Shown here in pieces: positions 16,273 to 20,222 of a DNA stretch of 64,000 bases. Within the stretch, counting starts at the first letter, position 1, and each line of letters starts with the position of its first letter. The position numbers were made by a program, and so were the translations under genes. The stretch comes from Thioalkalivibrio nitratireducens DSM 14787 (lineage in GTDB: Bacteria > Pseudomonadota > Gammaproteobacteria > Ectothiorhodospirales > Ectothiorhodospiraceae): contig NC_019902.2 of the NCBI RefSeq assembly GCF_000321415.2, forward strand, positions 3,686,501 through 3,750,500, given 5' to 3'. The notes below the pieces were generated by a model. The model ran no database searches. It was not told the origin of the DNA and was given only the letters and a program-made list of their open reading frames with translations.

Positions 16273-16974
16273 TCAGCCGCACTTGCTCTCGCCGCAATTC
16301 AGGCAGGTCATGCAGTTGTCGATCGAGACCACCGCGCGGGTGTTGCACTTGCTGCAGAGCTGCGCCCCGGGCGGGAACGGATCACCGGGATCGGTCTCGG
16401 TGTAGGCAAGATTGCGACTGGCCTCGAACTGGGCGCGCTTCTCCTCGAGATGCTGACGCTGGTGTTCATCAAGGCCGTCGTCCTGGATCAGGCCGATCAT
16501 GCGCAGGTGCCCCTCGATGGCATCGCCGATCTCGGCTACCAGCGAAGGCATGTACCTGCCCCCCTTCTTGAAATAGCCGCCGCGCGGATCGAAGACCGAA
16601 CGCAGCTCCTCGACCAGGAAGGTCACGTCCCCGCCCTTGCGGAATACCGCCGAGATGATACGGGTGAGCGCGACGATCCACTGGAAGTGGTCCATGTTCT
16701 TCGAGTTGATGAAAATCTCGAAAGGCCGGCGCAGCTCATGCTCGGTACCCGGATTCAGCACGATGTCGTTGATGGTCACATACAGCGCGTGCTCGGACAG
16801 CGGCGTCTTGATCTTGTAGGTGGATCCCATCAGCACTTCGGGCCGCTCGAGCTTCTCGTGCATCTGGACGACCTTGCTTGCCGGGGCCGCAGGTGCGGGT
16901 TCCGACTGCTCACCCTGCGGTTCCTCGCGCGCAACCTCGTAGCCCACGATCTTCCTGTCGATCCGGATCGCCAT
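16273..16974 (-). CDS. nrdJb: Class II ribonucleotide reductase, NrdJb subunit
   Basis: This 233-residue protein corresponds to the C-terminal part of class II ribonucleotide reductases that is encoded separately in Pseudomonas and relatives. A TSCPD-type region (about residues 50-170) is followed by a linker and a C-terminal zinc-ribbon-like tail with CSKC and CMTC pairs. The final ESKCG supplies redox-active cysteines that re-reduce the active site. The ATG at 16974 is 14 bases from the nrdJa stop, and the two polypeptides work as one B12-dependent enzyme. Confidence 0.88.
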   Translation of the reverse strand: MAIRIDRKIVGYEVAREEPQGEQSEPAPAAPASKVVQMHEKLERPEVLMGSTYKIKTPLSEHALYVTINDIVLNPGTEHELRRPFEIFINSKNMDHFQWIVALTRIISAVFRKGGDVTFLVEELRSVFDPRGGYFKKGGRYMPSLVAEIGDAIEGHLRMIGLIQDDGLDEHQRQHLEEKRAQFEASRNLAYTETDPGDPFPPGAQLCSKCNTRAVVSIDNCMTCLNCGESKCG

Positions 16975-16988
16975 CGTCTCGCCCCGCG

Positions 16989-19900
16989 TCAGAACTTGCC
17001 GTAATACCCTTCCTTCAGGGCATCGTAGAGGTTCGCAGCGGTATGAACCTCGCCGTCGTATTCGATCTCGTCGTTGCCCTTCGCCTCGATGCACGTCCCG
17101 TCCTCGAGCATGAAACGGTAGGTGGTCGTCGCGAGATCCTTCTCCTTCACCAGCACGCCCTGGAAGGCCTCAGGGTTGAAACGGAAGGTGGTGCAGCCCT
17201 TGAGGCCCTGCTGCCATGCATAGAGGTAGATGTCCTTGAAAGCGTCGAACGGGAAGTCGGTGGGTACGTTGGCGGTCTTGGAGATGGACGAATCGATCCA
17301 TCGCTGTGCCGCCGCCTGAACGTCGACGTGTTGCTTCGGCGCGATGTCGTCGGCGGTCACGAAGTAGTCCGGAAGGCGCTCATCCTCGGACTCGGGGCCG
17401 GGCATCGCGCGCGGGTTTACCCGCTCGCGGTAGGCCAGCAGTTCGAACGAAAACACATCCATCTTCTCCTTGGACTTCTTTCCCGAGCGGATCACGTTGC
17501 GCGCATAGTGGTGCGCGAAACTCGGCTCGATGCCATTGCTCGCGTTGTTCGCGAGCGACAGCGAGATGGTGCCGGTCGGCGCGATCGAACTGTGATGGGT
17601 GAAGCGGCAGCCTTCATCCGCGAGCTGCTCGACCAGTTCGGGGTCGACCTCGGCGATCTTCTGCATATAGCGGCTGTACCGCGCATGCAGAATCCGTCCA
17701 GGCAGCCGGTCGCCTACCTTCACCCCGTCTCGCGCCATTTCCGGGCGCAGGCGCAGCATCTTTTCGGTCACCGTGAACGTCTCGTCCATGATCGGCGCCG
17801 GACCCTTCTCGCGCGCGAGTTCGAGCCCGGCGCGCCAGCCGGCAAGCGCCATCTCCCGGGTCACGCGCTCGGTGAATTCCAGGGAGTCGTCGTCGCCATA
17901 TTTCATCCCCAGCATTGTCAGCGCCGAGCCGAGCCCGAGGTAGCCCATCCCGTGGCGGCGCTTGCGCAGAATCTCGTCGCGCTGCTCGGCTAGCGGCAAC
18001 CCATTGACTTCGACCACGTTGTCCAGCATACGCGTGAACACCGAGACGGTTTCGCCAAAGGCGTCCCAGTCGAGACGGGCCTTGTCGGTGAAGGGATCGA
18101 CGACAAACCTGGTGAGGTTGATCGAGCCCAGCAGGCAGGCACCGTAGGGGGGGAGTCCTTGTTCGCCACAGTTGTGGGCGTGCAAACCGCCGGCATCGAA
18201 GGTGTTGATGCCGGGCACCTGTACGTCGTACACATCGTCGACCCCGGCAGGGACGACCGCCTCGACCCGTGCGGTGAAGCGCTCTCGGTTGAGCTTGCCC
18301 CGGTGGCGACCCAGCAAACCGCGCAGGCGGGCGGCCTTGTCGCTGTCGGCGAAGCCGATCTGGACGTCGAACTGCTGCAGGTTTTCCCCGCTGATGACCA
18401 GCTCATGCTGTGGCCGAACAGCATATTCGGCTTGCCCATCCCTGCCATCGGGCAACAGGGAGGTGTTGCCCGCGCGGCGGTCGCGATGGAGAGTGGAGGC
18501 GATCCCCAGGCGCAGCAACATGCGCTGAGTGGCTTCGAGGATGGCGACGTCCGATTGGGCCAGGCGTACCGACAAACCCTTTCGCTGACTGCTCTGTACC
18601 GAGCCGTCGGCATCGAACAGGCCGCGCAGGAAGCCGCGACAGAACGCGCTGGACTCGGCCTCGATGACCGGGGTGATCGCCTTGTTGCGGTGCTGCATGC
18701 CAAGTTCAAGGGCCAGATCGCGGATCGCGGCGGTGGACAGACGCAACTCGTTGCGCCCGACCGCTGGGTACCAGCCCTGGAAGTCCGCCCGGTGTGGCAG
18801 TTGTCTGGCCGCGGCCAGCGCCTCGGCCATCACCGCCTGAATGCCACCGGAGAGGCTGGCATCGGCACTATCGGCAACCGCCGCAGGCCGCCATACCGAC
18901 AGCACCGCTTCGTTCCGCTTGAGGGTACCATCGCCCAGCAAAAGGCCTATCAGATAGCCCTCGTTGCGACCATGTTTGCCACTCCACTCGCTGTTGGCCC
19001 GATGGTCGTTGAGCAATACCCGATCCCCAGCGCGCAACTGACCTGCCTCGCACCATTCGGTCTCGGCGCGGTAACGGGTAAAGGCAGTGACACGGCGCAC
19101 CCGGTGATCGCTGGTAAGGCGCAGACGATAGCCCTCGCGGGTTTGGAGCTCGACCACCGGCTTGGTCGCAGTCTTGAAAAAGCCCTCGTGCCCGCTGGTG
19201 TGATCCTGGCCATCGACACGGGCGAGAAAGGGCTGGCCGATCAACTCGCTGACCTGACGCGGACCGCCGGCGGTCTGCACCCAGGTGTCGGCGGTGACAC
19301 ATGGGTTAGTGGCCCGGATCTCCTCGCACCACCAGTTGTTGTTCATCTCGTTGACCTTGTCGACCAGGATGAATCCCGGCTCGGCGAAGTCATAGGTGGA
19401 ACTCATGATCACGTCCCAGAGCCGGCGGGCAGGGATCGTGCGGTAGATGCGGCAGGCGACCTGCCCCGCCGCGTTGGTGATGTAGCCCTCGGTAACCGGC
19501 CAGTCACGCCACAGAACCTGTTCCGGATCGTCGAGGTCGACGACACCCTGCGCCGCCTCGACGTCGGTGAGCGGAAAGGCCAGCGGCCAGCGGGCGTCGT
19601 TTTGCACCGCAGCGATGAAATCGGCAGTGATCAGCAGCGAGAGGTTGAACTGGCGCAATGCCCCGGGGGCGCGCTTCGCACGGATGAACTCGAGTACGTC
19701 CGGATGCCCGATATCGAAGGTCGCCATCTGCGCCCCGCGGCGCCCGCCGGCCGAGGAGATCGTGAAGCACATCTTATCGTAGATGTCCATGAACGACAGC
19801 GGCCCGGAGGTATAGGCGCCGGCCCCCGACACGTACGCACCCCGAGGGCGCAAGGTGCTGAATTCATAGCCAATGCCGCATCCGGCCTTCAATGTCATCC

Positions 19901-20222
19901 CGGCCTCGTGCAGCTTGCTCAGGATGTCGTCCATCGAGTCGCCGATGGTGCCCGAGACCGTACAGTTGATGGTCGACGTCGCCGGCTTGTGCTCTTGCGC
20001 ACCGGCATTGGCCATGATCCGCCCGGCCGGGATCGCCCCCTGACGTAGTGCCCAGAGGAAACGCTCGTGCCAGTGTTCGCGCAACTGCGGGGTTGCCTCG
20101 AGGTCGGCCAGCGCCCGCGCCACGCGCTTCCAGGTACCGTCGATGTCGCGGTCCAGGATGGCGCCGTCCTGGCCCTTCAGGCGGTATTTCTGATCCCATA
20201 TCTCGATGGATGCGGGCTGCAT
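16989..20222 (-). CDS. nrdJa: Class II (B12-dependent) ribonucleotide reductase NrdJa with intein
   Basis: This is the catalytic subunit that reduces ribonucleotides using adenosylcobalamin, so it needs no oxygen. The reading frame has 1077 codons; removing the intein (18171-19301) leaves 700 residues, a normal length. The N-terminal extein has GRIMANAG, the STINC region and the glycyl/thiyl barrel segments; after splicing the finger-loop motif NPCGEQ is restored. The ATG at 20222 has GGAGG five bases upstream and begins MQPASIEIWD; longer frames upstream lack family similarity. Two NrdR-box-like sites lie about 80-120 bases upstream. nrdJb follows at once. Confidence 0.93.
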   Translation of the reverse strand: MQPASIEIWDQKYRLKGQDGAILDRDIDGTWKRVARALADLEATPQLREHWHERFLWALRQGAIPAGRIMANAGAQEHKPATSTINCTVSGTIGDSMDDILSKLHEAGMTLKAGCGIGYEFSTLRPRGAYVSGAGAYTSGPLSFMDIYDKMCFTISSAGGRRGAQMATFDIGHPDVLEFIRAKRAPGALRQFNLSLLITADFIAAVQNDARWPLAFPLTDVEAAQGVVDLDDPEQVLWRDWPVTEGYITNAAGQVACRIYRTIPARRLWDVIMSSTYDFAEPGFILVDKVNEMNNNWWCEEIRATNPCVTADTWVQTAGGPRQVSELIGQPFLARVDGQDHTSGHEGFFKTATKPVVELQTREGYRLRLTSDHRVRRVTAFTRYRAETEWCEAGQLRAGDRVLLNDHRANSEWSGKHGRNEGYLIGLLLGDGTLKRNEAVLSVWRPAAVADSADASLSGGIQAVMAEALAAARQLPHRADFQGWYPAVGRNELRLSTAAIRDLALELGMQHRNKAITPVIEAESSAFCRGFLRGLFDADGSVQSSQRKGLSVRLAQSDVAILEATQRMLLRLGIASTLHRDRRAGNTSLLPDGRDGQAEYAVRPQHELVISGENLQQFDVQIGFADSDKAARLRGLLGRHRGKLNRERFTARVEAVVPAGVDDVYDVQVPGINTFDAGGLHAHNCGEQGLPPYGACLLGSINLTRFVVDPFTDKARLDWDAFGETVSVFTRMLDNVVEVNGLPLAEQRDEILRKRRHGMGYLGLGSALTMLGMKYGDDDSLEFTERVTREMALAGWRAGLELAREKGPAPIMDETFTVTEKMLRLRPEMARDGVKVGDRLPGRILHARYSRYMQKIAEVDPELVEQLADEGCRFTHHSSIAPTGTISLSLANNASNGIEPSFAHHYARNVIRSGKKSKEKMDVFSFELLAYRERVNPRAMPGPESEDERLPDYFVTADDIAPKQHVDVQAAAQRWIDSSISKTANVPTDFPFDAFKDIYLYAWQQGLKGCTTFRFNPEAFQGVLVKEKDLATTTYRFMLEDGTCIEAKGNDEIEYDGEVHTAANLYDALKEGYYGKF
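18171..19301 (-). mobile_element. In-frame intein with LAGLIDADG homing endonuclease
   Basis: A 377-residue intervening protein sequence sits inside nrdJa. Its first residue is Cys308 (NP|CVTADTW) and its last Asn684, preceded by His (HAHN), with Cys685 as the +1 extein residue, so all residues for class 1 splicing are present. Block B is LTSDHRV. Two dodecapeptide motifs of a LAGLIDADG endonuclease are visible (YLIGLLLGDG and FLRGLFDADG), so the element may still be mobile. The insertion point is the highly conserved NPCGEQ loop, a known hot spot for reductase inteins. By eye it is somewhat less GC-rich than the exteins, in keeping with transfer. Confidence 0.95.

Follow-up and report, generated by a model that had tools for sequence, protein, structure and literature searches.

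The window analyzed here is a 64,000-nucleotide stretch of Thioalkalivibrio nitratireducens DSM 14787 (contig NC_019902.2, positions 3,686,501 to 3,750,500), in which nrdJa, the gene for the catalytic part of a class II, B12-dependent ribonucleotide reductase, is interrupted by an in-frame insertion of 377 codons. We interpret the insertion, with a probability of roughly 0.93, as a mobile class 1 intein that would excise itself from the precursor protein, home by means of its LAGLIDADG endonuclease, and have been transferred together with flanking DNA into the nrdJa gene of this strain. In the following, G000 designates the genome of the window, and other G and L labels designate genomes and loci of relatives.

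The insertion in nrdJa

The nrdJa precursor gene lies on the minus strand, as do all features described below (positions 16989 to 20222; 1,077 codons plus a stop codon). Sequence and translation both give an uninterrupted frame from the ATG at 20222 to the stop codon at 16989 to 16991. The insertion corresponds to residues 308 to 684 (bases 19301 to 18171, 1,131 nucleotides) and ends with LHAHN, after which the reductase resumes with CGEQ. It separates an N-extein of 307 residues ending in IRATNP (19302 to 20222) from a C-extein of 393 residues (16992 to 18170). The exteins (residues 1 to 307 and 685 to 1077) match the NrdJ model TIGR02504 with 539 bits, the cut-off being 400. A first-pass annotation of the window had placed a complete intein at 18171 to 19301; this proved exact to the base, with both ends and both LAGLIDADG motifs as it had described them. 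Alignment of relatives with and without the insertion, a check that the same annotation had suggested, bore it out: in intein-less homologues (G006, G017, G033, G036, G038, and others), residues 1 to 308 and 685 to 1077 are contiguous, and the junction has no gap.

The Cys+1 codon (18168 to 18170) aligns with residue 322 of the Thermotoga maritima NrdJ (1xje), which we take to be the catalytic, radical cysteine of that enzyme. Because of this alignment, the intein is predicted to split the active site of the reductase at its central residue (NP^CGEQ).

The N-terminal part of the Hint splicing domain (19002 to 19301, residues ~1 to 100) contains the block B signature Thr63-x-x-His66 and was delimited from the structural model and from the conservation of T63 and H66. 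The C-terminal part (18171 to 18275, residues 343 to 377) contains the block F residue Asp359 and the terminal His376-Asn377. Profile, model, and structure matches place a LAGLIDADG homing endonuclease domain between them (18297 to 18968, residues ~112 to 335), and both of its motifs retain their acidic residues: Asp124 in YLIGLLLGDG (18927 to 18956, residues 116 to 125) and Asp232 in FLRGLFDADG (18603 to 18632, residues 224 to 233). This domain scores well above the cut-off of Pfam LAGLIDADG_3 (E=7.3e-24). A search of PDB sequences with the intein gave marginal matches only. An AlphaFold model built from 22 aligned sequences (predicted local distance difference test score, pLDDT, 91.9) has the TliVMA intein, PI-PfuI, and PI-SceI as its top PDB structure matches (E to 4e-18, template modeling score ~0.6), and the intein is accordingly modeled with a Hint fold.

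At the same nrdJ codon, relatives of this gene are empty or carry an intein of either of two families, family A, which ends in His-Asn and includes the window intein, or family B, which ends in Gly-Gln. Conservation was counted over 45 aligned inteins (34 of family A and 11 of family B; L033 and G074 are identical). T63, H66, and D359 are present in all 45. So is Cys1, in part by construction, since the search pattern demanded a Cys. The terminus is H376-N377 in 34/34 family A inteins and Gly-Gln in 11/11 of family B, in which (G011, G043, G029, G179, and others) the replacement of His-Asn is thus conserved and not a sign of decay. The endonuclease acids are incomplete, with D124 in 43 and D232 in 41 of the 45. 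The universal splicing residues and the loss of endonuclease acids in a few members indicate that splicing is kept while the nuclease can decay. The window intein has Cys1, the block B TxxH, the block F Asp, His-Asn, Cys+1, and an open frame across both junctions. Judged from its sequence, the insertion is no chance pattern but a class 1 intein that contains a LAGLIDADG endonuclease.

Distribution and turnover of two intein families

Among 30 Thioalkalivibrio genomes, the site was readable in 20. Family A occupies it in eight (G000, G008, G015, G003, G014, G016, G019, and G040), family B in two (G011 and G043), and ten are empty (G006, G023, G017, G001, G004, G005, G009, G010, G020, and G021). 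The other ten genomes comprise G041, with an nrdJ of uninterrupted length in which the site was unread, G018, with a fragment, and eight without an NrdJ match. Evenly sampled across the class, 369 genomes included 26 with family A (27 places; E<1e-150) and 12 with family B (E<1e-120); one of the latter, G155, has its intein broken over two frames. An NrdJ match (1e-60) was present in 199 of the 369 genomes, and 35 of these 199 belong to the 38 intein carriers. The insertion point is NP^C in 29 of 31 loci; in the other two, the search pattern found no start.

Viral contigs contributed 27 loci with intein relatives, 26 of them preceded by NP and 24 with a readable Cys+1; three viral loci belong to family B. 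Eight of the 27 viral genes were scanned with Pfam, and all eight match a reductase domain (at least two architectures), seven of them over the cut-off. The collections of phage and plasmid records held distant relatives only (21 to 29% identity), and a scan of genome contigs for the intein gave two loci. The two families are homologous over 352 columns with 28% identity (hhalign).

The host tree comprised 53 genes (33 A, 10 B, and 10 empty), a nonrandom sample in which A and B rows came from intein or gene searches and empty rows from the first search for relatives. It omits the cut genes of G019, G023, G018, and G043, the frameshifted G155, the viral loci, the loci with unplaced ends (G130, G288, G298, and the second copies in G366 and G169), and the empty genes of G004, G005, G009, G010, G020, and G021. 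On this tree, the three states require 18 changes; shuffled labels require a mean of 18.4 and were as low in 107 of 200 trials. Several sister pairs with strong support are of mixed state, either A/B (G000/G011, G290/G179, and L034/G277, A first) or A/empty (G015/G006, G008/G017, and G040/G001, empty second). G011 is the nearest relative of G000 by host sequence, with N-exteins 95.4% and C-exteins 89.6% identical, and the inteins of the two are 30% identical. In the intein tree, G000 and G008 are placed together (Shimodaira-Hasegawa-like approximate likelihood ratio test, SH-aLRT, 98/100), and the approximately unbiased (AU) test on a quick tree rejected a single clade for all eight Thioalkalivibrio inteins of family A (p=0.016). 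For G003 and G019, synonymous divergence (dS) is 0.086 in the intein (23/284 sites) and 0.450 and 0.407 in the exteins, indicating that the intein moved after the hosts diverged.

The first-pass annotation had called the intein possibly mobile. Its sporadic presence, the two inteins at one site, the discord between trees, and the converted flank described below strengthen that suggestion, and the comparison of genes and genomes leaves mobility well supported. Base composition, which the same annotation had singled out for comparison with the flanks, is weak evidence: the GC content at third codon positions (GC3) is indeed lower in the intein (78 versus 85 and 83), but overall GC is flank-like (65.5 versus 64.5 and 62.6). 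GC3 of the intein is below that of both flanks in 33/34 family A and 9/11 family B members.

Several further elements were observed in these genes and genomes. In the viral contigs L053, L056, and L072, a second intein-like start (C-VSGDTLL) occurs ten residues past the first intein in the same gene. The N-extein of the nrdJa genes at L085, L109, and L079 (G290, G179, and G364) contains one more LAGLIDADG-like element (FLAGLIDTDG), located upstream; it is nearly identical in G290 and G179, although these carry A and B, respectively, at the catalytic-cysteine site. An intein-like insert starting with CVTGDT and ending with HN^S occurs at L040, L041, and L043 (G006, G012, and G015) in a gene that presumably encodes the replicative helicase DnaB. 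A further nrdJ copy (G040:C2:2436-4342, L045), which is broken and contains a stop codon, resides on plasmid pTK9001 of G040, which was classified as conjugative; ~300 nucleotides are inserted in this copy exactly at the intein site. This insert had no significant blastn or tblastn match among the collected inteins (best E, 0.025), leaving the idea of a decayed family B intein unconfirmed.

A conversion tract beside the intein

The C-extein flank of the G000 intein resembles a different branch of the genus than the remainder of the gene does. We scored in G000 the 261 sites that separate its sister G011 from the G008/G017/G043 branch, of which only G008 and G017 were usable on the N side. From position -1 to +305 relative to the insertion site, these sites favor the G008/G017/G043 branch by 44 to 2, whereas elsewhere they favor G011 by 150 to 65. 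Identity of G000 within the tract is 77.7% to G011 and 86.6 to 88.5% to the branch (G017, 88.2%); beyond it, the values are 89.3% to G011 and 79.2 to 81.9% to the branch (G017, 79.2%). The putatively co-converted flank, which resembles G008, G017, and G043 and not the sister G011, thus spans ~305 nucleotides from the insertion site (17866 to 18170). G000 is the recipient, because G011 is no closer to the branch within the tract. nrdJa of G000 therefore appears to keep an unusually clear scar of the arrival of the intein in its DNA.

The crowding of nucleotide differences around the site was assessed in 117 pairs of genes within 25% divergence, with 69 same-state pairs as the baseline (per-pair analysis, 270); in the 69 pairs, the near-site ratio has a median of 1.02 and a maximum of 1.43. 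In the A/B pair G290/G179, 18 differences fall within 60 nucleotides of the site and 3.7 were expected (P=2e-8). In G000/G011, differences are in excess mainly from -120 to +180 (56 versus 27.7 expected, P=2e-7), with 18 differences within 60 nucleotides (10.1 expected, P=0.014). No near-site excess was found in three A/A pairs at 6% divergence, and the medians for 25 A/empty pairs and two B/empty pairs are 1.01 and 0.8, respectively. The footprint is visible only in A/B cases that appear to be recent. Co-conversion in G040, which has CGEQ where most empty genes have CGEE, was considered and rejected: the empty gene of G005 also has CGEQ, and there is no clear excess of differences.

These data suggest the following sequence of events. 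The NrdJa precursor would be made with the 377-residue insert, which would fold as a Hint domain. Excision through Cys1, Asn377, and the extein Cys+1, predicted from the conserved residues and the model, would rejoin TNP to CGEQ and restore the catalytic cysteine. The LAGLIDADG domain would presumably cut intein-free nrdJ alleles at the site, and repair off the occupied allele would copy the intein plus flanking DNA. Indirect evidence shows that transfer took place here: the G000 gene is sister to that of G011 except from the insertion site to ~305 nucleotides downstream, where it matches another branch of the genus, and its intein is closest to that of G008, which belongs to this branch. The intein would be a selfish element, tolerated through traceless splicing and, in G000, buffered by the genes for two other reductase classes.

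A number of observations weigh against this scenario. The window intein falls narrowly short of the cut-offs of the two splicing profiles, Pfam Intein_splicing (33.7 bits versus 35.8) and NCBIfam TIGR01445 intein_Nterm (22.7 versus 24.5); the phage relative L049 reaches 52.9 on the former. The near-site ratio for 21 A/B pairs has a median of 1.0, the excess being clear only in the two closest (3.09 and 1.87), and the close A/empty pair G015/G006 has no excess (8 differences versus 5.9 expected). The tract score of G000 was not reached in any of 20,000 permutations, which treat sites as independent and refer to a comparison branch picked after the profile had been seen. The intein nearest to that of G000, found in G008, lacks Asp232, so the sampled relative offers no active homing allele; G008 belongs to the donor branch, and the donor strain itself lies outside the sample.

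Ordinary homologous recombination, with no involvement of the endonuclease, might also have brought in the intein with its flank. A tract of this kind can form without a nuclease, the tract is one-sided, and the G008 intein, the closest to that of G000, lacks a catalytic Asp of motif 2. We consider this origin unlikely, since the tract starts at the insertion site itself, the differences between G290 and G179 are likewise concentrated next to the site, and the endonuclease domain has been maintained. In five of five pairs, the ratio of nonsynonymous to synonymous divergence is 0.16 to 0.22 for the endonuclease and 0.09 to 0.16 for Hint, consistent with purifying selection on the endonuclease domain in all five.

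Reductase complement and dependence on splicing

The first-pass annotation proposed that DNA synthesis depends on splicing, in a gene with no second copy visible. The absence of a second copy holds within the window but not genome-wide: G000 also encodes NrdA (C1:2390119-2391726), NrdB (2388513-2389376), and NrdD, the last in this genome alone among the 30 of the genus. Since class Ia NrdAB and class III NrdD are encoded, growth need not depend on splicing in this organism. The situation differs in G015 (99% complete), in which the intein-bearing NrdJ is the sole PF02867 match and there is neither a PF00268 nor an NRDD match. G014 and G016 have a similar pattern in poorer assemblies, and G003 and G008 each have one further short PF02867 match. 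Dependence on splicing could hold in G015, where NrdJ is the sole reductase detected. The need for splicing would then differ between strains and, to judge from gene content, would not extend to G000.

The class III reductase of G000 is split (C1:1681172-1682963; L036 and L140, with L141, L143, and L144 similar). An NrdD of ~697 residues lacks the glycyl-radical motif, and this motif (RCEVWTRVMGYHRPV) is located in a separate open reading frame (ORF) of 54 residues that follows NrdD with an overlap of 14 nucleotides and is preceded by AAGGAGG. The small ORF was matched in 33/369 genomes of the class, in a frame of <200 residues in 24 of the 33, of 246 to 365 residues in three, and of >600 residues in six. 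In four of five loci, the end of the large ORF lies 8 to 29 nucleotides beyond the first start codon (ATG) of the small ORF; the fifth, L142, gave no result. The small ORF appears to encode a glycyl-radical subunit in its own right, and no report of a split NrdD of this kind was recognized in the literature, as judged from listings.

A regulatory role for the intein, with redox- or temperature-responsive splicing gating the supply of deoxynucleoside triphosphates under stress, is highly improbable in our assessment. Its appeal lies in the interruption of the active site, such that the unspliced enzyme should be inactive, and in G015, whose only detected reductase would be under this control. 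Cysteines that could in principle pair with Cys1 are also available: Cys84 occurs in 28 of 34 family A inteins, and an N-extein Cys at -9 occurs in 40 of 45 genes. In addition, the R2 intein of Aquifex made the mature host protein more active and better loaded with iron (PMC8772380), so that some advantage for the host is conceivable. Cys84, however, is missing from 6 of 34 family A and from all 11 family B inteins, and G000 has other reductases. Moreover, states turn over on the host tree, itself a nonrandom sample, as fast as shuffled labels, unlike what would be expected of a regulator that is kept. As for conditional splicing in general, no physiological role had been found as of 2014 according to excerpts of one review of the subject (PMC4031507). 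Nothing found points to redox or temperature control, and the physiological reading of the first-pass annotation is mostly not supported. A redox trap formed by a cysteine at -3 to -1 was discarded as a conserved trait, being present in 1 of 45 genes.

Vertical inheritance of an old and now immobile intein could account for the wide distribution of family A (26/369 genomes) but is already contradicted by the empty and family B alleles of the nearest relatives, by the low intein dS of G003 and G019, and by the AU test against a single genus clade, which leaves it with hardly any credibility. That the insertion is a domain of the reductase that is never removed can be dismissed in view of the conserved splicing residues, the predicted intein fold, and the close homologues that lack the insert with a gapless junction.

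The neighboring gene nrdJb

The next gene downstream of nrdJa is nrdJb (16273 to 16974), which encodes a TSCPD-domain partner subunit (TSCPD, E=3e-8; C-terminal match to PRK08665). This arrangement implies a split NrdJa/NrdJb enzyme as in Pseudomonas aeruginosa, which has the same order of nrdJa followed by nrdJb; the host gene studied here differs in bearing an intein. Split NrdJa/NrdJb enzymes are described in almost all gammaproteobacteria that have class II enzymes (PMC4520616), and the word "intein" is absent from that paper.

Relation to known inteins and significance

Inteins at this reductase cysteine are already known. PI-PfuI (1dq3), which resembles the window intein in combining Hint and LAGLIDADG domains and is among its best structural matches, presumably derives from a ribonucleotide reductase. 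The reductase of Pyrococcus abyssi is said to contain three inteins. An intein in bnrdE of the Bacillus phage SPbeta was reportedly described by Lazarevic in 1998. The latter sits before the corresponding cysteine (SNL^CVTGET ... VTGN^CSE) but interrupts a class Ib reductase, ends in Gly-Asn, and is ~21% identical to the window intein. A reductase intein has also been reported in Methylococcus capsulatus (MCA2543; PMC517821). It is likened to the window intein, as are PI-PfuI and the P. abyssi inteins, by host gene and type of element, not by insertion site. The intein of the Chilo iridescent virus ribonucleotide reductase has a C-terminal Gln, with which it reportedly splices more efficiently than with Asn (PMC4031507); its terminus, the sole basis of the likeness, is that of family B, whereas the window intein ends in His-Asn.

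The statements that follow draw on excerpts of the papers cited. A 2014 survey by the Gogarten group (PMC4071816) lists an intein allele of the reductase gene, rir1-b, in Thioalkalivibrio sp. K90mix, ALE11, ALE30, and HL-Eb18, as well as in Methylococcus capsulatus, Methylobacter, Rhodanobacter, Bacillus subtilis, and others, with a tally of 55 Bacteria, 15 Halobacteria, and 5 other Euryarchaeota. Since K90mix is listed there and the chromosomal nrdJ intein of K90mix (G040) is located at NP^C, the site of the window intein is very probably that of rir1-b, an identification made through K90mix with the sequences of that paper unaligned. In contrast to the present work, the excerpts contain no division into two families and no conversion tract and do not list T. 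nitratireducens DSM 14787. Inteins sharing a site in orthologous proteins have been described as closely related (PMC2814812). The inteins of ~30% identity at one codon in sister species appear to run contrary to that statement. Neither two families at one codon in sister species nor a mapped tract was seen in the part of the literature surveyed.

We tentatively suggest, as a possibility that is on balance doubtful, that the codon of the radical cysteine is a niche contested by two intein families, which would replace one another by gene conversion in closely related hosts. The CVTADT start that they share may allow direct displacement with no empty intermediate, phages might be a common reservoir, and G000 would represent a recent event of A over B or of A over an empty site.

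Empty, A, and B alleles of this site all occur within the genus, together with strains that have and strains that lack a backup reductase. This makes two questions testable in bacteria that are harmless, namely, the succession of rival inteins at one site and the cost of an intein to a host that needs the interrupted enzyme; for the latter, G015 offers a test of the dependence on splicing.

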